From positions 3,327,001 to 3,391,000 of the forward strand of contig NZ_CP077085.1 of assembly GCF_014268455.2 (NCBI RefSeq): a DNA stretch of 64,000 nucleotides, in the 5' to 3' direction. Position numbers and translations under genes: made by a program. The DNA is from Pseudomonas shahriarae. GTDB taxonomy: Bacteria > Pseudomonadota > Gammaproteobacteria > Pseudomonadales > Pseudomonadaceae. Shown piece after piece: positions 16,656 through 24,614 of this stretch (position 1 is the stretch's first letter; each line of letters starts with the position of its first letter). A model generated the notes under the pieces. The model was not told the origin of the DNA. It ran no database searches and saw only the letters and a program-made list of their open reading frames with translations.

Positions 16656-19600
16656 TTATGCGCCAGCGTGAGCCCGACTCAGCAATTGAGCGGTAATGAC
16701 GGCTTGACCGATTTTTTCTCCCCGATTGAACAGATCAATACAGACCTGGTTGGTTTTGAATGACGGCTCAGGCGCCTCGAAGCTGCCTTGTGGCGCCAGT
16801 AGCAAGGGGCTGTTCGTCGGAATCGGTCGATCCAGCGTGAAACTCAAGGCCAGCAGGTTCATCGGGGTGCCCAGCGGGATGCGTCGGTGGGTGTGAGCAA
16901 TCTGCATGAAGCACTGGCGCGCAACTTCAAGGAAATACACCATCGAGTAATGCTTGGGGCCGCCCTTGCGGAAAAAGTGCTCGTTGGCCGGTTGAAGGGT
17001 TTCGACGCTCAAGCCCCGAGCGACATCGCTCATGTCGCTGACCAGAACGTTTTCTTGTCTGTCCTTGTGCAGCAGAGCCTTGTCGCGGCAGGCGGTCGCA
17101 GTGAACGGGGCGGCGGGCAACGCCTCGTGTGCCGAGCTGTATGCAATGCCCAGGGTGCAGGTGCACATGAGCTTGCCGGCTTGCCGGACCTTCGCGCGAA
17201 ATACCTGGAGTTCTTGGTCGTATTCCAGTTGCAGGTCAATTGCCCCTTGTTTTTGTACGTACCGCTGGAACTTGATCGTCAGGTCGTTGACATACGCGAC
17301 CCGGCCACTGCGTGGAGGCATGGCGAGTTCGGTCAACTGCAATACCCCCTCGATCAATAAAATGCCGGGGACATGGTCCAGTGGGTGATCAAAAAAATAG
17401 GGGTGCGCTTCATTTACCAGCAATTGCGCGTGCAGTGACTGCGCACTGCGTTGAACATTGCTGATCACGATGTTTTCCGGGCTGCGCTGCCAGTGCTCGG
17501 CAGGCCGGGCGTGAGCGTCACGGCGCAGGGTGCAAAGCGCTTCGATGGCACGCACCCTGACACGCAGCGCCGAGAGCAGTGTCTCTGTCAGTTGATCGCT
17601 GAGTGCCAGCACGCCTGTCTCATCGTTTTGCAAATCAGCCACAGGGCTGGCAGGACCGTCAGGCCCGATGCACGACTGCAACGCCTGAGGCTGCGGGTGC
17701 GCGAAGCGCAATTCAAAGGGGCGCTTGATGGCTGGCGGGCATTCGGGGGCGGTGATCCCCCACTCCCGCAGTTTCTCGGTGAATAACCACATCACCGGCT
17801 TGCCGGCCTGGCGCACCTCGATCACCGAGTGAACCGACGCATTCATCATCACGGCCAACAGGGTTTCGACGCCGGTGGCTTCAGCCAGGCAACCGGTCAT
17901 GCCTTGCCATGAACCGCCGACAGGGGCTGCCGCCGGCTGCAACTCACACACCTCAATATGCTGGACATCGCTTCGCGCCCGGCCCAGACGTGCGCACGCC
18001 GCTTCCAGGGAGGTGGCGACATGGCCCAAGACCGCTGCGCGGATCACCAGCACAGGTGTGTCACTGGTTTGCGCTCGATAGGGCCGCAAAGCGAACACCC
18101 CCATGCCCTCCCCCTGCAGGGTCGGTGACTGCCGAACGCGCTCGATTTCGGCTGGCGCACTGATGAAGCGCCCCGCACCGAGCAACAGCGTGGTGATGCC
18201 TTCGTTGAACCATTGTTGCGAGGCCAGCAGGGCGTGCCAGAACACCCCAGGCGTGCCGACCAATGTCTGATGAAATCCCTTGAGGTCAAAAATTTTCGCC
18301 GGGTACCCCGACAACATGCTCGGCAAACTGGTTGCCACGTCCGCCGCATCCTGCTCGGGTGGCATGCCCTGTGCCCGGCCGAAGAAGTTGTGAATACGGC
18401 TATAGGCGTTACTGAAGTGCGCGCCGCCCAAGTTACAGCACATGACCATCGCGGTCTCGGGTGAGCCGGCTACCCCCGGCAGGCGGCGCAGTAAGTGATT
18501 GACGCGATCGGTGATCAACAGTTTGAACGGATCGACACTGGCCAGCAGTTTGGGGCCCATGCCGAAGCCATCGATATCAATGACGTGGTCCTGCGCCAAG
18601 AATCGCCCTGGCAACGGCTGAACCGAAGTGGCCGGGTAATCAACAAAGCGCCCGTGGGGAAAACCAACCAAGGGGGCCGCAGGCTGATCAAGTTGTTGCT
18701 TGAGTGAGTGTAACGAGAGGTGGCTGCCGATCGCCGCCTCCGCCTCGACAATGCCCAGGTCCAGTAGCAGCACGCCGGGGCTGACTCGGGAGGCCATGGG
18801 CTGGTTGCCGGGCAGGTATTGATCCACCACCAGGTGCGCGTTGGCACCGCCAAAACCAAAGCTGGAGATACCGATGCGAATCGCCGACTGGCGATCAGCC
18901 AAGGGCTGTCCCTGCCCGCTCGCAAGTTGCAGACAGGATTCATCGACCTTGGCGCTTGGCGAGTAGTCGGGCTGGGGTGGAATGGTTTTTTGAGCCAGTA
19001 TCATCAACGTCTTGGCGAGCGAAGCACCTCCTGCGGCCGCCAAGGGATGCCCAATGACAGATTTGATCGAGCCTATGGGTAATTTTTTACCCTCGGTCCG
19101 ATAGGCACCGAAGAAACTGTTCAGCGAGTCGAGTTCTGTCGCATCACCCAGCGGGGTGCCCGTGCCATGGGTCTCGATATAGTCCACCGCGCCGGGGTCC
19201 AGGCCGAGATAGGCGCGTTGGTACGCCGTATATTGGGCCTGTTTGCCGGGTGCAAACACTGAACCCTCTGCGCCATCGGCCGACAGCCCCAATGCGCGCA
19301 GTATGCCCAGGGGGCGGCGCTGCGCCTGCAGGGCTTGGGATACCGGCTCGACCAGGAAAGCCACCGCGCACTCACCCGGCACAATACCGTCCGCGTCGCG
19401 ACCGAACGCCTGCATCCGGGCCCTGGGTGAAAACGCCGTCAACTGGGAAAACCCCAGGAAAAGTGGAAGCGGCAGTACCGTGTTCAACGCCATCACGATA
19501 GCGTTATCCGCCTGCCCGCTGTTGACCAGGGCCTGGGCCATGTTGAGCGCGTAAGGGAACGAACTGCAGGCGGTATCGACGGACAACGCCGGCCCTCCCA

Positions 19601-20072
19601 GCCCCAGCGCCAACGCCAGCTCCGCCACTTGTTCGCCGGGCGCATAGCCCTGTGGCGCACGGGCGTCAGTCGATGTGGGGGCAAGGAAAAAACTCTCGTC
19701 GCTCCAGGACGTCGCGACGACCAACGCCGTGCGCTCCCTGATCAACGCCGAACCTTGTGCAGTCAATTGGGCAAGGAGTGCCTGCAGCACTTTCCGGCCA
19801 ATGGCGACCTGCCTTCCTTCATACCGTGAAGGGGTCGCTGCGCTATCAGACAGGCAATAGGCACTGTCCAGGTAGGTGCGGTTTTTTTCCCCGACCGTGG
19901 CTGAATAGATCGACGCTTTATCCAGCTCCCAGCGTGGCAGCATCGAATTCAGAGGCGCGATCTGCCCTTGTGCCAGCAAGTGCCAAAGCGCATCCACTGA
20001 GGGCGCCCCAGGGAACTCGCCAGCCATGGCGCTGAAGCAAAAATCCCCCTCTGGTGTCACCGTGCTCTGCAT
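16656..20072 (-). CDS. Ketosynthase / KS-like / AfsA hotdog fusion protein
   Basis: A 1138-residue multidomain protein, last gene of the five-gene operon. Residues 1-440 are a beta-ketoacyl synthase with an intact triad: Cys169 in DTACSSF, His302 in ETHGTGTPLGD and His342 in SVIGHPLAAAG. Residues about 440-800 look like a second thiolase-fold domain, but the active-site Cys position reads VGTPGVF, so this half is probably a chain-length-factor-like inactive partner. Residues about 860-1130 match the AfsA/ScbA hotdog family: HPYFFDHPLDHVPGILLIEG from His890, and LSFTLDRPIP in the second hotdog half. AfsA in Streptomyces joins a beta-ketoacyl-ACP to dihydroxyacetone phosphate in gamma-butyrolactone synthesis. 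Start at 20072 is set by AGGAGG 8 nt upstream. It has no AT domain, so malonyl loading would use the host FabD. The butenolide-type product is inferred. Confidence 0.8.
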   Translation of the reverse strand: MQSTVTPEGDFCFSAMAGEFPGAPSVDALWHLLAQGQIAPLNSMLPRWELDKASIYSATVGEKNRTYLDSAYCLSDSAATPSRYEGRQVAIGRKVLQALLAQLTAQGSALIRERTALVVATSWSDESFFLAPTSTDARAPQGYAPGEQVAELALALGLGGPALSVDTACSSFPYALNMAQALVNSGQADNAIVMALNTVLPLPLFLGFSQLTAFSPRARMQAFGRDADGIVPGECAVAFLVEPVSQALQAQRRPLGILRALGLSADGAEGSVFAPGKQAQYTAYQRAYLGLDPGAVDYIETHGTGTPLGDATELDSLNSFFGAYRTEGKKLPIGSIKSVIGHPLAAAGGASLAKTLMILAQKTIPPQPDYSPSAKVDESCLQLASGQGQPLADRQSAIRIGISSFGFGGANAHLVVDQYLPGNQPMASRVSPGVLLLDLGIVEAEAAIGSHLSLHSLKQQLDQPAAPLVGFPHGRFVDYPATSVQPLPGRFLAQDHVIDIDGFGMGPKLLASVDPFKLLITDRVNHLLRRLPGVAGSPETAMVMCCNLGGAHFSNAYSRIHNFFGRAQGMPPEQDAADVATSLPSMLSGYPAKIFDLKGFHQTLVGTPGVFWHALLASQQWFNEGITTLLLGAGRFISAPAEIERVRQSPTLQGEGMGVFALRPYRAQTSDTPVLVIRAAVLGHVATSLEAACARLGRARSDVQHIEVCELQPAAAPVGGSWQGMTGCLAEATGVETLLAVMMNASVHSVIEVRQAGKPVMWLFTEKLREWGITAPECPPAIKRPFELRFAHPQPQALQSCIGPDGPASPVADLQNDETGVLALSDQLTETLLSALRVRVRAIEALCTLRRDAHARPAEHWQRSPENIVISNVQRSAQSLHAQLLVNEAHPYFFDHPLDHVPGILLIEGVLQLTELAMPPRSGRVAYVNDLTIKFQRYVQKQGAIDLQLEYDQELQVFRAKVRQAGKLMCTCTLGIAYSSAHEALPAAPFTATACRDKALLHKDRQENVLVSDMSDVARGLSVETLQPANEHFFRKGGPKHYSMVYFLEVARQCFMQIAHTHRRIPLGTPMNLLALSFTLDRPIPTNSPLLLAPQGSFEAPEPSFKTNQVCIDLFNRGEKIGQAVITAQLLSRAHAGA

Positions 20073-20113
20073 GTCGTTTCCTCCTGATTGCCAAAATTGC
20101 AGCGGGGCGTGTC

Positions 20114-20971
20114 TCAGCTCAGCCTTTCCAAAAACCACAGCGTGTCCCGCGGCGTACGACATGACATCAACGCTTCACCGGCAAACTGGCTGGCAGAGCA
20201 CTGCTGTGCCAGTGCTTGGCAAAATGCTTCGCGGGCAAAACCATTGAGTCCCAGCTCGGTGAAGGGCGTATCAATATCGAACGCTTTTGGCTCGCCCGGG
20301 ATCAGCGGTACCAAGGCGTCGAACAGTTGTTGGCTGAAGGCCGGCTCGGCGCTCTGGGCCTCAGGCGTTTGCGCAGCACTTGCCGGCGCGGGGGGCGACT
20401 CGGGCGCGGCCAGAGCCGCTTTAATCAGTGCGATAGTGTGTTGCGGGCACTTGGCGTTGAGCAATTGAGTGCCGCTGGCTTTGAGTTCCGGCCACAGGTC
20501 GACGAGCGACTCGAGGAATTCCATCTGCACCAAAGAGTCCAGCCCCAGGCTTTCATAGGGTTGTTCCTGGTCGATCTGATCTACGGTAAAACCGGTGATA
20601 ATTGCCAGTTGTTCAAGCACCGAGGCTTCGACATCCACAGCTGGCAATTGCGCACTGCCTGGCTCATCAAGAGTGGCCGTTGCCAGTGTGGCTGAGTTCA
20701 AGTACGACGTTTCCAGCGGTGCAACAGTTGGATTAAGCGGTACTTCAACCCGACGGGAAAACGCGCCCTCAAGTACTTGTTTGTGAGCATTGAGATACTG
20801 CACCGTGATGGTTTCGGCCTGAGCCAGCAAACGCATCAATATTGATTCTTTCGCTGTATCCGAGTCGCCCAGCGAATCAATGATCCTCTCTGATAGAGAG
20901 AAATAACTCTGGACCATTTTTCCATTGGACACGATAAATTCCTGCACAACATCGCCAAGTTCAAGGCGCAT
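20114..20971 (-). CDS. ACP protein with one active and one degenerate ACP domain
   Basis: A 285-residue protein. An N-terminal helical region (about 1-80) is followed by an acyl carrier protein domain (about 112-190) with the phosphopantetheine attachment motif LGLDSL, Ser146. A Pro/Ala-rich linker leads to a second ACP-like helix bundle (about 215-285) in which the same motif reads LGLNGF: Gly244 replaces the serine, so it cannot carry the arm. It would hold the growing acyl chain for the ketosynthase encoded 41 nt downstream. GGGAGG lies just upstream of the ATG. The second domain might dock partners or be a relic. The 117-bp gap before it contains a hairpin and is clearly AT-richer than the rest of the operon. 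Confidence 0.82.
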   Translation of the reverse strand: MRLELGDVVQEFIVSNGKMVQSYFSLSERIIDSLGDSDTAKESILMRLLAQAETITVQYLNAHKQVLEGAFSRRVEVPLNPTVAPLETSYLNSATLATATLDEPGSAQLPAVDVEASVLEQLAIITGFTVDQIDQEQPYESLGLDSLVQMEFLESLVDLWPELKASGTQLLNAKCPQHTIALIKAALAAPESPPAPASAAQTPEAQSAEPAFSQQLFDALVPLIPGEPKAFDIDTPFTELGLNGFAREAFCQALAQQCSASQFAGEALMSCRTPRDTLWFLERLS

Positions 20972-21018
20972 GGAGACCTCCCAACCGAAGTTAAATTTGG
21001 TTATTTAAAACAAACTAT

Positions 21019-21060
21019 CAGTTCATCGCCAACGCGGGCCTTGCGCAAACTAATGAACTG
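21019..21060 (-). terminator. Hairpin inside the biosynthetic operon, possible attenuator
   Basis: Perfect 8-bp arms (CAGTTCAT / ATGAACTG) with an inner GCG/CGC pairing lie between the monooxygenase-like gene and the ACP gene. Read on the minus strand, the hairpin is followed by a T-rich stretch (TAGTTTGTTTT). It could lower expression of the ACP and ketosynthase genes relative to the first three, or end the upstream transcript if the ACP gene has its own promoter. Confidence 0.45.
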
Positions 21061-21088
21061 CGCACACAGGTTTAAATCGGCAGCGCCG

Positions 21089-22495
21089 TTAAATCATTCT
21101 TGCTGGAAGTTGCTTTTTTTTCACCTTGACCAGCCCGGATCGCACGTGCAGATACGTCATCAGCGTAGTTATATCCAGCCCCTGAAAAGCGATATAGCCG
21201 TCAGGACGAATCAGCATCAATGTGCCTGCCCGCGCGTGATAACGCTTGTGCAAGCGCCAGTCCGGGTCCAATAACGTCGAATGTTGAAACGGCGCCCCTG
21301 CACTGCCGAGGGCATCAATAACGCAATAGGCCTTGATACCTGGGTAATCCGTCTGCACTGCATCAGCCAGTACGTAATAACCCGGCAGTAAAGAGGAAAA
21401 TTGATCGGCCGCACTGAAGACCAGTAACGTGAACGTTCCCTGGAACAGATCCATCAAGCGTCTTGGCGGCGTACCTGGGGGTTGCCATAACTCGATATCG
21501 GGAGCCAGTTGGCCGGCGCGAGGCGCTGCGGTCGGGAACCGCGACTTCCTGCCCTTTTTATTCCAATGCGCGCGCTGCTTGTTCGTCAGGGACTCTTGAA
21601 TACCGGTACTTTTGCCGTAGCGGTAGTGATGAGCACAAATCATCGAGGCCAACGTGCGCTGGAGCGGGCGCCAGTCACCCAGCAGTGGCAGGATGTTATC
21701 CCGCAGCCAGACAAGCACTCGGTGCACCATGCTCTCGGCTCGCAAGGTTGTCGGGAAGCACTCTTCGTTATAGCTCTGCAGCAATGCGGGGGCTGCCAGG
21801 CCCTGATCGACATAGGCGATTTTCCACGCCAGGTTATAGGCCTCGCCCATCCCCAGGTTAATCGCCTGATCCGCCAGAGGGTGGCCGATAGGCGCCGAAT
21901 CGCCTGCCAGGAACACGGCATCGTGCTGCAGTGCCTGCACACGACGCGGCTGGGACGTGGCAATGCGGCGATGAGCACCGTCGCAGGCGACCATCCAGCG
22001 AGCGCTCAAACGTTCGTCGCGGCCATCAGCATGATGCAGGAGCATCTGCACGGATTGCGGCTGGTTCTGCAGTTCGACCAGTTCGGTATTCCACTCAACA
22101 CCCAGGCCCGATGCATCAAGACGCTCAAGCAGGATTTGCTCTAGCGTCGACGCTGGCAAGCTGAGTAAAAAAGGGTAACAGGCATCCAGATAGGAGAAGT
22201 TATCGTTCGGTACCCGTTTGCTGTTCGCCTGCAGCGAAAACTGCTTGAGCGTAAAACCGTTGCTGACAGCCTGTTCGGCAACCCCCAGGTGCCGGAGCAT
22301 TTCCAGGGTTCTTGAATGCACGACCCGCGACGTGGTGGCGGTCGAAGGGCCGGCATTCTTGTCAATAAGGCGGAAAGAAACGCCCCATTTCTGCAGTAGG
22401 TTTGCCAGTAGCAGGCCAACAGGTCCGGCACCCACGATCATGACCGTCGTCGGCACAGCGCATGGCCCGGGGACTGAAGTGTTCGAGGCGCCCAT
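21089..22495 (-). CDS. FAD monooxygenase-like protein lacking the substrate domain
   Basis: A 468-residue relative of class A flavin hydroxylases (TfdB/PheA/MhpA type). It has the N-terminal dinucleotide fold (VGAGPVG, near residue 21), the DG motif (ACDGAHRR, Asp172), the GD motif (FLAGDSAP, Asp199) and a C-terminal thioredoxin-like domain (about 320-468, with RPDGYIAFQG). In the family about 100 or more residues of substrate-binding domain separate the DG and GD motifs; here there are only 27. The usual GGQGMN after GD is LADQAIN. The reading frame is intact, so this is a clean internal loss, not a frameshift. It may be inactive or may have acquired another role such as oxidising an ACP-bound substrate. 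It starts three bases after the phosphatase stop. Confidence 0.78.
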   Translation of the reverse strand: MGASNTSVPGPCAVPTTVMIVGAGPVGLLLANLLQKWGVSFRLIDKNAGPSTATTSRVVHSRTLEMLRHLGVAEQAVSNGFTLKQFSLQANSKRVPNDNFSYLDACYPFLLSLPASTLEQILLERLDASGLGVEWNTELVELQNQPQSVQMLLHHADGRDERLSARWMVACDGAHRRIATSQPRRVQALQHDAVFLAGDSAPIGHPLADQAINLGMGEAYNLAWKIAYVDQGLAAPALLQSYNEECFPTTLRAESMVHRVLVWLRDNILPLLGDWRPLQRTLASMICAHHYRYGKSTGIQESLTNKQRAHWNKKGRKSRFPTAAPRAGQLAPDIELWQPPGTPPRRLMDLFQGTFTLLVFSAADQFSSLLPGYYVLADAVQTDYPGIKAYCVIDALGSAGAPFQHSTLLDPDWRLHKRYHARAGTLMLIRPDGYIAFQGLDITTLMTYLHVRSGLVKVKKKQLPARMI

Positions 22496-22498
22496 AAG

Positions 22499-23110
22499 TC
22501 AGTACCAGTTCCGATAAAAGGGGGCGTTGGCAATACCGAGCAGGGCATCGTCGCCGGATGAGTCGCCGTAGGCGTAAATGTAGTAGTCATCAAGGTTGGC
22601 CAGGCAGCCTCTGAGCCGTATGACTTTCTCCGGCCCAACACAGTTGGTGCCTGAGATGCCCCCCGTCAGCCTGTCGTTCTCGGTTTCCAGGCGAGTGCCG
22701 CACACATAGTCGAACCCCACTGCCGCCCCCCAGGGAGCCAGGTAGTTCTCTGGCGAGTTGCTGACCAGCGCCGTGACATGCCCCATGGATTGATGCCATT
22801 GCAGCCGGCGCAGCGCCTCGGGCCTGATCCAGCGTGGCAATTGCTCAGTCACGAAATGCCGCGCGTGCTCACGCTCCTTCTCCACCGACACGCCACCCAG
22901 GTAACGCGCAATAAACGCCAATCGAGCCTGCATCAACGGGGTCACGCCCAGAATCACGCTGAACACTTTTGGCAGCAGCCAGATCATTTTGAGCCAGAAC
23001 ATTTTTGTTCCCGCGACGTAACGCATATAGCGCCAGAACGTATGCCGGTCGGAGAGCGTGCCGTCAAAGTCAAACACCGCCAATACCGGTGGCGTGCCAT
23101 CAGCTTGCAT
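22499..23110 (-). CDS. HAD-superfamily phosphatase (SerB/HAD-IB type)
   Basis: A 203-residue phosphohydrolase with all HAD motifs: DFDGTLSD with nucleophile Asp14 and Asp16, the motif II serine in ALVSNSPE, Lys in GPEKVIRL, and the motif IV acid pair in YGDSSGDD. The helical cap between motifs I and II carries a hydrophobic stretch (FWLKMIWLLPKVFSVILG) that may sit against a membrane or acyl chain. The start at 23110 has AGGAG 8 nt upstream and overlaps the end of the ligase gene by 11 nt. In a butenolide pathway this enzyme could remove the phosphate left by the dihydroxyacetone-phosphate unit; that is an inference from its neighbours. Confidence 0.82.
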   Translation of the reverse strand: MQADGTPPVLAVFDFDGTLSDRHTFWRYMRYVAGTKMFWLKMIWLLPKVFSVILGVTPLMQARLAFIARYLGGVSVEKEREHARHFVTEQLPRWIRPEALRRLQWHQSMGHVTALVSNSPENYLAPWGAAVGFDYVCGTRLETENDRLTGGISGTNCVGPEKVIRLRGCLANLDDYYIYAYGDSSGDDALLGIANAPFYRNWY

Positions 23111-24614
23111 GGCTGTGCTCCTTGAGGACGATGATCTCAATGGTCTTGGGCAGTTTGAACCCCGAGAGGTGCTGAGAAAGCAGCGTGGAAATTGCGCTCT
23201 GAGTCAGCCCGGCACGCCCCTCGACACACAGGTGCAATGCGTTGACCTCTTTGTGGTCGGGAACGATGTAGGCTTTTGCACGCACCGCATCGGGGTGTTG
23301 CATGGCGACGGATTCGACCTCCAACAGATCGACCATCTGCGCTTTGATCTTTGAGATGCGTAAGCGTTGACGATAGAAAAACACATGTCCATCGTCATCG
23401 CGCCAAACCAGGTCACCCGTGTGCAGCCAGCCGTCACGGAAGAACCGCTTATTGGCTTCTTCTGCATCGTCGTAACCGTCAATCACCATCGACCCGCGTA
23501 CCAGCAATTCGCCGATCCGCCCTGGCGCGACGTCTTGCCCTTGAGCGTCGACGACGCGCAGTTCCACACCCCTGATCGGCTGCCCCATGGCACCGCGCTG
23601 CGCGACGCCAAGCGTACTCTGTAGCAGCACGGGCATGCTCTCGGTCAAGCCGTAGCCCTGCAATACCGGTTTGCAGCCCAGCAACCGCCCCAGTTTCTCC
23701 GCTTCGTCCGCGGGTAGATGGCTACCGCCTGAGTAAATCATCAGTTGAGGGTGCATCGGCAACAGCGCGCCTTTGCGCTTGGCCAGTCGGCTATTGAAAT
23801 AGCGAATGACATCGGGCACCAGGCAGGTATAGGTGACCTTATGCCGGGACAGGACTTCTGCCAGGTCCCTGTTGAGCACGGTATCGGTCATCAACAGCGT
23901 GGCGCCCACGCTCAATGGAAAGATCATCATCGCCGACAGCCCGAAGATGGCGTGCAGCGGCAGCGTGACCAGATGGACGGAGCCGACCCCCTGGCGATGA
24001 ATATGCTCGTGCATGCCATCGATTGCATGCGTCACGTCAAGGTAGCGGTGAGGAACCGCCAGCGGTTTGCCGGTGCCCCGATAAGTGAACTGTATCGAGA
24101 CGATTGGGTTGCCTTCAGGCAATACCAGCGGTTCGTTGCGACACATAAGCTGAACATCAGGCGTCGCATTTTCAGACAGGGATGAGGACTCACCCACTTC
24201 CAATAACAAGGAGTGACGAACGCCGTTGGCGAGTTGGAATATTTCGCTGTGTTTTTCGAAGAGCGCAGCTGTTGTCACAACCAGCACAGGCCTGGCGCTG
24301 CCCACCACACTCGCCATTTCAAATGGCGTCAACTTGTAGTTAAGGATGACCGGAATTGCACCACGTCCAACGATCGCTAAAAAATAAGCGATAAATTCAA
24401 CACCGCTGGGTAGAACAAGTGCAACTTTTTCGCCCGGCAAGATATTTAAAGTGCCGAGCGCACCGTTACACTGCTCGGCTTTTAGTCGTAACTCGCGATA
24501 TGTCACAACCCCTGTGTCGACATCCAGATTCCTGATAGCGATATGTTCAGGGAAGGACTCTGAGATCCCGAAAAATCGGTGTAGAAAACCGTCCTGACAC
24601 AGCAAGGATTCCAT
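23100..24614 (-). CDS. Divergent AMP-dependent acyl synthetase/ligase
   Basis: A 504-residue member of the ANL adenylating superfamily and the first gene of the operon. Core motif A5 (GYGLTE, near residue 320) and A7 (HTGD, near 397) are present. Two catalytic features are abnormal. The A3 phosphate loop reads TYRGTGKPLAV (177-187), with Leu185 where the conserved Lys normally stands. The C-terminal A10 motif with the adenylating lysine (GKxxR) is absent, because the protein ends about where it should begin. It may therefore work poorly at adenylation, use a preformed acyl adenylate, or act only in acyl binding or transfer to the ACP. AGGAG lies 9 nt before the ATG. Codon and base composition are AT-richer than the flanks, with some lines near 43% GC. 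Confidence 0.8.
   Translation of the reverse strand: MESLLCQDGFLHRFFGISESFPEHIAIRNLDVDTGVVTYRELRLKAEQCNGALGTLNILPGEKVALVLPSGVEFIAYFLAIVGRGAIPVILNYKLTPFEMASVVGSARPVLVVTTAALFEKHSEIFQLANGVRHSLLLEVGESSSLSENATPDVQLMCRNEPLVLPEGNPIVSIQFTYRGTGKPLAVPHRYLDVTHAIDGMHEHIHRQGVGSVHLVTLPLHAIFGLSAMMIFPLSVGATLLMTDTVLNRDLAEVLSRHKVTYTCLVPDVIRYFNSRLAKRKGALLPMHPQLMIYSGGSHLPADEAEKLGRLLGCKPVLQGYGLTESMPVLLQSTLGVAQRGAMGQPIRGVELRVVDAQGQDVAPGRIGELLVRGSMVIDGYDDAEEANKRFFRDGWLHTGDLVWRDDDGHVFFYRQRLRISKIKAQMVDLLEVESVAMQHPDAVRAKAYIVPDHKEVNALHLCVEGRAGLTQSAISTLLSQHLSGFKLPKTIEIIVLKEHSHAS

Follow-up and report, generated by a model that had tools for sequence, protein, structure and literature searches.

Streptomyces hormones and gladiostatin owe their butenolide cores to AfsA-type enzymes. 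Here we describe an operon of Pseudomonas shahriarae for what appears to be a variant of this biosynthesis, damaged in the present genome. It lies in a stretch of 64,000 nucleotides (contig NZ_CP077085.1 of RefSeq assembly GCF_014268455.2, positions 3,327,001 to 3,391,000), referred to below as the window. Its largest gene encodes a fusion of a ketosynthase (KS), a KS-like domain resembling a chain-length factor (CLF) and an AfsA double hotdog, the two halves of which stand in the reverse of the canonical order. Judged from its genes, the window copy is an eroded remnant of an eight-gene cluster, with four genes that still look constrained. Our best reading, held with slightly more belief than doubt, is that the cluster builds a beta-ketoacyl chain on an acyl carrier protein (ACP) at the fusion, condenses it with dihydroxyacetone phosphate (DHAP) and removes the phosphate, the product being processed further in the relatives. 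The cluster is real and conserved, and the evidence for DHAP-type chemistry is good but indirect: gene content, gene order, domain identity and the loss of parts are observed directly, and from these we infer every chemical step, the DHAP partner in particular.

The fusion and its operon

The first-pass annotation of this DNA had proposed five co-directional, tightly spaced genes, one of them for a KS / KS-like / AfsA fusion. Five minus-strand open reading frames (ORFs), for a ligase, a HAD phosphatase-like protein, a flavoprotein, an ACP protein and the fusion, were located where it placed them, which confirms the gene set; two starts have been moved. The HAD ORF had been listed as 22499-23140, and the start common to its relatives is the ATG at 23110. 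For the fusion, listed as 16656-20162, the shared start is the ATG at 20072, with AGGAGG upstream at 20080-20085. The features are as follows (lengths in amino acids, aa).

23100..24614, minus strand: AMP-binding (ANL) ligase, 504 aa; Pfam AMP-binding, 195.9 bits
22499..23110, minus strand: HAD-IB phosphatase-like protein, 203 aa, with DFDGT and GDSSGDD motifs; Pfam HAD, 123.3 bits
21089..22495, minus strand: flavoprotein of the p-hydroxybenzoate hydroxylase type (FAD_binding_3), 468 aa, internally deleted; FAD_binding_3, 169.5 bits in two stretches
20114..20971, minus strand: carrier protein, 285 aa; Pfam PP-binding, 29.2 bits, residues 118-156
16656..20072, minus strand: KS / CLF-like / AfsA double-hotdog fusion, 1138 aa; Pfam and alignment
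18798..20045, minus strand: ketosynthase domain of the fusion (approximate limits), with TACSS, HGTGT and GHPLAAAG; Pfam
17673..18785, minus strand: KS-like, chain-length-factor-like domain (approximate limits); alignment and predicted model
17115..17486, minus strand: first AfsA hotdog, with FFDHPLDHVPG, counterpart of the C-terminal half in canonical AfsA proteins; C-half hidden Markov model (HMM), 72 bits
16659..17114, minus strand: second AfsA hotdog, with ExxRQxxMxxxH, counterpart of the N-terminal half in canonical AfsA proteins; N-half HMM, 21.3 bits

The fusion scores 89.8 bits with ketoacyl-synt and 103 bits with Ketoacyl-synt_C. The first-pass annotation had named a sensitive HMM search as the test of its AfsA assignment, and the assignment survives it: AfsA (PF03756) matches in two stretches at 80.7 bits, where the cut-off is 24. 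The source genome is a single contig of 6,054,205 bases, in which PF03756 matches this fusion gene only, again in two stretches. The HAD protein scores 126.4 bits with the NCBIfam model TIGR01490, above its cut-off of 98.3.

The KS domain is intact in its catalytic residues, with C169, H302, K337 and H342 invariant in all 12 fusions aligned. In the KS-like domain, inspection of the alignment by eye finds none of the condensing residues. Its predicted model (predicted local distance difference test score, pLDDT, 77.7) matches ketosynthases in general, the KS/CLF entry of ishigamide synthesis, 6kxd_B, ranking second (E 4.1e-13; we take chain B to be the CLF) and the KS-CLF of PfaC, 6riw, seventh (E 1.9e-12). 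Since these matches are to ketosynthases generally, the fold alone is no proof of a CLF. A KS with the Cys-His-His triad followed by a catalytically empty CLF, as in PfaC, is thus seen in the fusion, with the CLF called by eye and by a fold match that is not CLF-specific.

To determine the order of the hotdogs, a separate profile was built for the N-terminal and for the C-terminal half of AfsA from 15 canonical proteins (seven from Streptomyces, eight from Pseudomonas); a long polyketide synthase (PKS; locus L003) and proteins lacking the motif (L012-L018, L021, L024 and L030) were left out. In the window fusion, it is the first hotdog that the C-half profile recognises, and the second that fits the N-half profile. 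The same reversal is found in 15 of 15 fusions, the window included, the N-half match being below 10 bits in L074, L084, L085 and L087; the canonical arrangement, N-half and then C-half, was found in none. In a wider set and at a stricter threshold, all nine fusions with both halves detected are reversed; L074, L083-L087 and L090, in which the C-half alone came up, were not judged for order. L097 and L098, neither of which contributed to the profiles, have the canonical order. L110-L112 are canonical by construction, as the same proteins helped to build the profiles, and L109 has a single hotdog matched by both. A stand-alone Streptomyces AfsA protein (L093) is also reversed. Across 24 aligned sequences the motifs HPYFFDHxLDHxPG, HK and ExxRQxxMxxxH are invariant, as are E241, R244, Q245, M248 and H252 (alignment numbering) of the second hotdog.

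PfaC of the bacterial polyunsaturated fatty acid (PUFA) synthases has the order KS-CLF-DH-DH, where DH is a dehydratase. The fusion resembles it in having an intact KS, a KS-like domain without condensing residues and a double hotdog, in that order, and 6riw ranks second, twelfth and seventh in three lists of sequence or fold matches. The double hotdog could then be a dehydratase or isomerase of an iterative lipid synthase, with no C3 unit in the product. The distant homologues fit such a role in that they lie directly behind a protein of 1247-1472 aa (L079, L081, L084-L087 and L089, where the fusion is followed by the ligase), which has the domains acyltransferase (AT)-ACP-ketoreductase (KR) in the two cases scanned, L079 and L084. 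In the predicted model, the AfsA part is a double hotdog (pLDDT 80.8) with fold matches to the thioesterases TesB and FatA and to PKS dehydratases, and the only solved sequence that it matches, weakly, is hydroxymyristoyl-ACP dehydratase (E 0.27). We nevertheless regard this explanation as unlikely. Pfam reports AfsA and no FabA or PKS-DH family in the window fusion and the six relatives scanned, so that the hotdogs match AfsA rather than the FabA type of PfaC; the other window proteins contain no KS, AT, KR or other PUFA-synthase domain detectable by Pfam, leaving no ketoreductase to supply a hydroxyacyl substrate; and the phosphatase gene would go unexplained. The position of the FabZ catalytic histidine, located by its distance from the PG of the hotdog motif, is occupied by a phenylalanine; this argument is weak because two invariant histidines are nearby.

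The eight-gene cluster and its eroded copy

The first-pass annotation had suggested a search for the combination of KS and PF03756 to reveal its distribution and neighbours. This search bore out a wider family: the long fusion is present in 21 of 398 Pseudomonas genomes drawn evenly across the genus (about 5%, the window included, with one copy cut by a contig end), and in close relatives it sits in a neighbourhood of eight genes. AfsA of any kind occurs in 45 of the 398, of which 24 carry it in other proteins only. The gene order is that of a short-chain dehydrogenase/reductase (SDR), the ligase, HAD protein, flavoprotein, ACP protein and fusion, and then an SRPBCC protein and an outer-membrane protein (OMP); of 47 loci compared in Pseudomonas, Serratia and Neisseria, 44 keep it. 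The three exceptions are two loci cut by contig ends and a Neisseria locus with the SDR inverted. The five-gene order alone is kept in 46 of the 47, the sole exception being cut by a contig end, so that the arrangement goes beyond chance. These 47 combine L032-L051 with L052-L078, sets that overlap in genomes, and leave out the distant L079-L098. In the relatives, the SDR is of the extended type (Epimerase, 92.1 bits; the HpnA and OleD models score below cut-off), the SRPBCC protein matches Polyketide_cyc2 (33.9 bits, cut-off 27.4) and the OMP is an outer-membrane beta-barrel protein (63.1 bits). A TetR-type gene is often near the cluster, mostly on the opposite strand.

A scan of named genomes yielded 47 fusion-related loci. 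The close ones are from Pseudomonas species (P. brassicacearum, P. kilonensis, P. thivervalensis, P. mandelii, P. gingeri, P. gessardii and P. otitidis among them), Serratia rubidaea and a Neisseria metagenome-assembled genome (MAG), and the distant ones from Desulfobacteraceae, Syntrophomonadaceae, Rhodocyclaceae, Bacteriovoracaceae and other MAGs; in L088 and L090-L098 the match covers a KS or an AfsA part only. The nearest relative is P. gessardii DSM 17152, with 86% identity in the fusion, 98.8% in cysI and the same neighbouring genes. In a search of nearest relatives the fusion was found in the window genome only (1 of 57), and likewise in a class-wide search (1 of 369), a weak result given that at most two candidates per genome were scored among the matches listed. 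On plasmids, the whole fusion as query returned 253 records, none covering 80% of it; the 20 matches listed are to the KS part, all ending by residue 516 and 19 starting within the first 22 residues. The AfsA part as query returned 44 plasmid records, 36 from Streptomyces and eight from Aliiroseovarius.

Three minor observations concern individual copies. In the Neisseria sp. MAG (L077), a LysR regulator gene lies near the operon, whose SDR gene is inverted. The flavoprotein and fusion genes of Serratia rubidaea NCTC12971 (L078) are each split into two ORFs, by a lesion or a sequencing error. In P. gessardii (L070:2081-3778), Oxidored_FMN and MerR regulator genes stand between an FMN reductase gene and the SDR gene; neither is at the corresponding spot in the window.

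Only the window copy lacks the SDR, SRPBCC and OMP genes, none of which was found anywhere in the 64 kb. Searches of the rest of the window genome for orthologues gave 33% identity at best for the SDR and no match for the SRPBCC protein and OMP; as controls, the SRPBCC query found a match in two genomes (one of them its source), and the SDR and OMP queries had tblastn controls only. The flavoprotein has 468 aa, as against 584-628 aa in 19 of 19 relatives, a loss of about 116 residues. Compared with that of P. gessardii, it lacks 100 residues after residue 178 (near 21961) and then 10 more, and it has an altered GD motif and a different C-terminus (six relatives were aligned). FAD_binding_3 matches in two separate stretches rather than the one continuous stretch, 20-358, of L052; a complete FAD/substrate domain with its GD motif is not present. 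By eye, the N-terminal region of the carrier protein seems helical; the rest comprises one ACP with the GLDSL serine and a C-terminal ACP-like region. Of the 19 relatives, 18 have a carrier protein of 356-373 aa and P. gessardii has one of 283 aa; with 285 aa, the window protein has lost one carrier domain of those 18, as judged by length and six aligned sequences. The C-terminal ACP-like region lacks the phosphopantetheine serine in seven of seven sequences aligned.

Pairwise dN/dS is 0.40 for the flavoprotein, as against 0.147 for the ligase, 0.128 for the HAD protein, 0.182 for the fusion and 0.243 for the ACP protein; these last four (0.13-0.24) look constrained by purifying selection. Of 398 flavoprotein columns that do not vary among 18 other relatives, 93 are deleted in the window and 70 changed (17 of the changes shared with P. 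gessardii, 53 its own), and P. gessardii has 46 changed and none deleted. At the invariant sites of the other proteins, the window and P. gessardii have 29 and 30 changes in the ligase, 18 and 16 in the HAD protein, 73 and 75 in the fusion, and 28 and 24 in the ACP protein, in which 43 columns are deleted in both. Changes at otherwise invariant sites that are found in the window only number 9 of 303 (ligase), 9 of 158 (HAD protein) and 29 of 670 (fusion). Given the three absent genes and the decaying flavoprotein, which is probably non-functional, we regard the copy as an eroded remnant in which the other four genes still look constrained.

The decay may have gone further, to a dead operon that makes no product at present, which would be compatible with our best reading of the cluster as a whole. 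With three of the eight genes gone and the flavoprotein deleted and drifting, this is a serious possibility, but one that we rate somewhat below even: the ligase, HAD protein, ACP protein and fusion keep their open frames, motifs and low dN/dS (pairwise values that would also be compatible with a recent death), and their changes at invariant sites are comparable to those in P. gessardii.

The predicted pathway

In the intact cluster, the ligase and carrier protein would supply an acyl chain, which the fusion, through its KS and the adjoining CLF-like partner, would extend to a beta-ketoacyl-ACP. None of the five window proteins has a ketoreductase, dehydratase or acyltransferase domain detected by Pfam, and so the simplest reading is a short extension with malonyl-ACP drawn from fatty acid synthesis. 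The reversed AfsA double hotdog, on the same polypeptide, would release the chain by condensation with DHAP to give a phosphorylated 2-acyl-butenolide, from which the HAD-IB protein would strip the phosphate. Further oxidation, reduction or cyclisation of the product would fall to the flavoprotein, SDR and SRPBCC protein, and its exit from the cell may be aided by the outer-membrane protein. As the flavoprotein, SDR, SRPBCC and OMP set is lost or broken in the window, the pathway there, if working, would stop at the dephosphorylated butenolide or a related earlier product. The first-pass annotation had proposed the outline of this scheme, a beta-ketoacyl-ACP joined to a C3 phosphate, dephosphorylated and oxidised. 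The AfsA assignment, the Cys-His-His KS, the phosphatase-like and flavoprotein genes and the company that AfsA keeps elsewhere (see below) speak for its general form; with part of the flavoprotein fold missing and the SDR absent, the window copy cannot run the whole scheme as predicted for the relatives.

A second way to read the same genes is as a small type II PKS set for an aromatic compound or pyrone, in which the AfsA-like domain only cyclises or releases the chain, without DHAP. The relatives do pair the KS-CLF with a Polyketide_cyc2 protein, an SDR and a full-length FAD_binding_3 protein; the flavoprotein matches models of aromatic-ring hydroxylases, below their cut-offs; and the KS-like model matches the ishigamide KS/CLF entry. 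An AfsA domain and a HAD-IB phosphatase would have no role in such a pathway, however, and relatives of the HAD protein and flavoprotein accompany AfsA in loci that lack the fusion. We therefore consider an aromatic or pyrone product improbable.

Several observations weigh against DHAP condensation followed by dephosphorylation. The cluster is known here from its genes alone, with product and activity both predicted. The NCBIfam ScbA/BarX model NF041195 gives the fusion 103.6 bits, below its cut-off of 200, so that the match falls short of equivalog level. ExxR, expected in both hotdogs, is kept in the second only (24 of 24); in the first it is E-x-x-L or E-x-x-M in Pseudomonas, the arginine being gone from the fusions aligned, and in L077, L079 and L084 the glutamate is absent too. 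ScbA mutants at the corresponding residues are reportedly inactive. The ligase ends before the PRTxSGK motif, and its A10 lysine, usually required for adenylation, is absent in 13 of 13 aligned sequences, distant ones included; its P-loop variant, FTYRGTGKPLAV, has the form [FY]T[YW][RK]G in the same 13. Lastly, no relative of the window HAD protein or flavoprotein was detected in the stretches around the distant fusions that were examined, and the HAD step is therefore probably not ancestral to the fusion. The core is thus the fusion, ligase and carrier protein, and the HAD protein and flavoprotein belong to the Pseudomonas-Serratia-Neisseria form. On the other hand, a Glu-to-Ala change introduced in the gladiofungin producer with a guide RNA directed at its AfsA domain reportedly had no effect on the profile; the degenerate ExxR therefore does not settle whether the fusion is active. 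With the halves reversed and one ExxR degenerate, canonical AfsA catalysis by the fusion is therefore a point that we infer.

Beyond the DHAP pathway itself, the cluster may represent a distinct class of chain release, a suggestion that we make tentatively and would put just short of an even chance. Such a class would combine a PfaC-like KS-CLF with a reversed AfsA double hotdog and a ligase lacking A10, place chain building and DHAP closure on one polypeptide, and extend from Pseudomonas, Serratia and Neisseria to deltaproteobacterial and Syntrophomonadaceae MAGs, there with AT-ACP-KR proteins and different tailoring genes. If this is true, the fusion with its reversed hotdogs, which extends to other phyla, would offer another means of linking chain building to DHAP capture. 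The compact eight-gene cluster occurs in tractable pseudomonads, where the phosphatase, oxidation and reduction steps would be separately testable, and the eroded window copy amounts to a natural test of what the pathway can do without.

Related loci and known systems

In the Pseudomonas sample there are 27 non-fusion AfsA places, of which 19 were examined. Relatives of the HAD protein and the flavoprotein are near AfsA in four (L109, L115, L117 and L118, with Pfam domains checked in L109 and L117) and were not found in the other 15. In L109 (G286:C398:16000-29000), a modular Pseudomonas PKS ending in KS...AfsA is followed by a HAD gene (50% identical), a flavoprotein gene and an MMPL gene, a probable case of gladiofungin-like release with tailoring genes. 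L117 has the order AfsA, HAD, aldo/keto reductase, flavoprotein; it and L118, which look closely related to each other, both have a short AfsA protein (248 aa). The HAD match in L115, L117 and L118 is weak, 29-32% over about half of the protein. The window genome has only two other HAD-like and three other flavoprotein-like places at E 1e-4, so that chance vicinity should be small; biosynthetic clusters are richer in such genes, though, and this estimate is made without a proper null.

The first-pass annotation had gone on to suggest that the phosphatase gene fills a step usually left unassigned. This novelty does not hold, as phosphatases have been proposed for it before: mmfP/ahfaP, glaP and a Chromobacterium HAD-IB gene. 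In Chromobacterium subtsugae, an AfsA-related hotdog gene is co-expressed with the HAD-IB hydrolase gene alongside it; a KS-CLF fusion is not mentioned in the text available. In Ruegeria pomeroyi, an AfsA-containing cluster is described as required for killing. The closest parallel by gene kind is mmfLHP/ahfaLPH of Streptomyces (methylenomycin furans, AHFA), where an AfsA-family synthase, a phosphatase and a flavin-dependent oxidoreductase share one small cluster and a DHAP-derived phosphorylated butenolide has been proposed or supported. The same three kinds of gene stand together in the window, the flavoprotein being damaged. MmfL is presumably a stand-alone AfsA protein in canonical order. 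In those systems the chain comes from fatty acid synthesis with no dedicated ligase or ACP, whereas here there is a fused KS-CLF.

Chain release by an AfsA-like domain has been described in Burkholderia gladioli. For gladiostatin, the domain releases the PKS chain by DHAP condensation in vitro, and for gladiofungin, there is genetic and labelling support for such release. The likeness to the fusion lies in the AfsA-family domain at the C-terminus of a PKS and in a phosphatase-like gene, glaP, in the cluster; the PKS there is a modular trans-AT system, whereas here it is a PfaC-type KS-CLF didomain, and the reverse order is a feature of the fusion. A 'KS-AfsA' PKS 1 and A-factor-like cluster of Pseudomonas Ps664 (eLife 2021) likewise has an AfsA domain with a KS, but is described as an assembly line of adenylation (A), thiolation (T) and KS-AT-KR domains with a thioesterase, and is closer to L109 than to the window operon. 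In the literature covered, which was open-access (subscription papers lying outside its scope), no description of a KS-CLF-AfsA fusion or of a reversed AfsA was found.

Two further Pseudomonas reports may touch on the cluster. The 'butyrolactone' region sM_r8 of P. brassicacearum 3Re2-7 is possibly this cluster, the name being an automatic label without any known match in the part of the report available; P. brassicacearum strains do carry the cluster (L052, L072 and L076). For the antifungal (Z)-4-hydroxy-4-methyl-2-(1-hexenyl)-2-butenolide of Pseudomonas, the authors of a study on Pseudomonas sp. So3.2b suggest an unknown 'butyrolactone' cluster as the source. That our cluster makes this compound is very improbable. 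To judge from the structures, its C3 part would be linear with a 4-methyl group, whereas an AfsA product would branch at C3, and neither the accessible part of the So3.2b study nor the present analysis gives a sequence link to the cluster.

In the three distant loci scanned, varying sets of other genes lie downstream of the ligase: methyltransferases of the isoprenylcysteine carboxyl methyltransferase (ICMT) type (L079, L084), SDR proteins (L079, L089), PPDK-like proteins with PPDK_N and PEP-utilizers domains (L084, L089) and a weak UbiA match (L089). A P450 (L084) and an MMPL protein (L089) are also among the neighbours. A plasmid of Streptomyces durmitorensis (L100) carries a stand-alone reversed AfsA gene beside genes labelled isoprenylcysteine methyltransferase, PEP/pyruvate-binding and P450. 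Together with this plasmid, the neighbour sets of L079, L084 and L089 look like a separate pathway. On a plasmid of Aliiroseovarius crassostreae (L101), an AfsA-related gene adjoins a gene labelled trpA, an FAD oxidoreductase gene and transporter genes.

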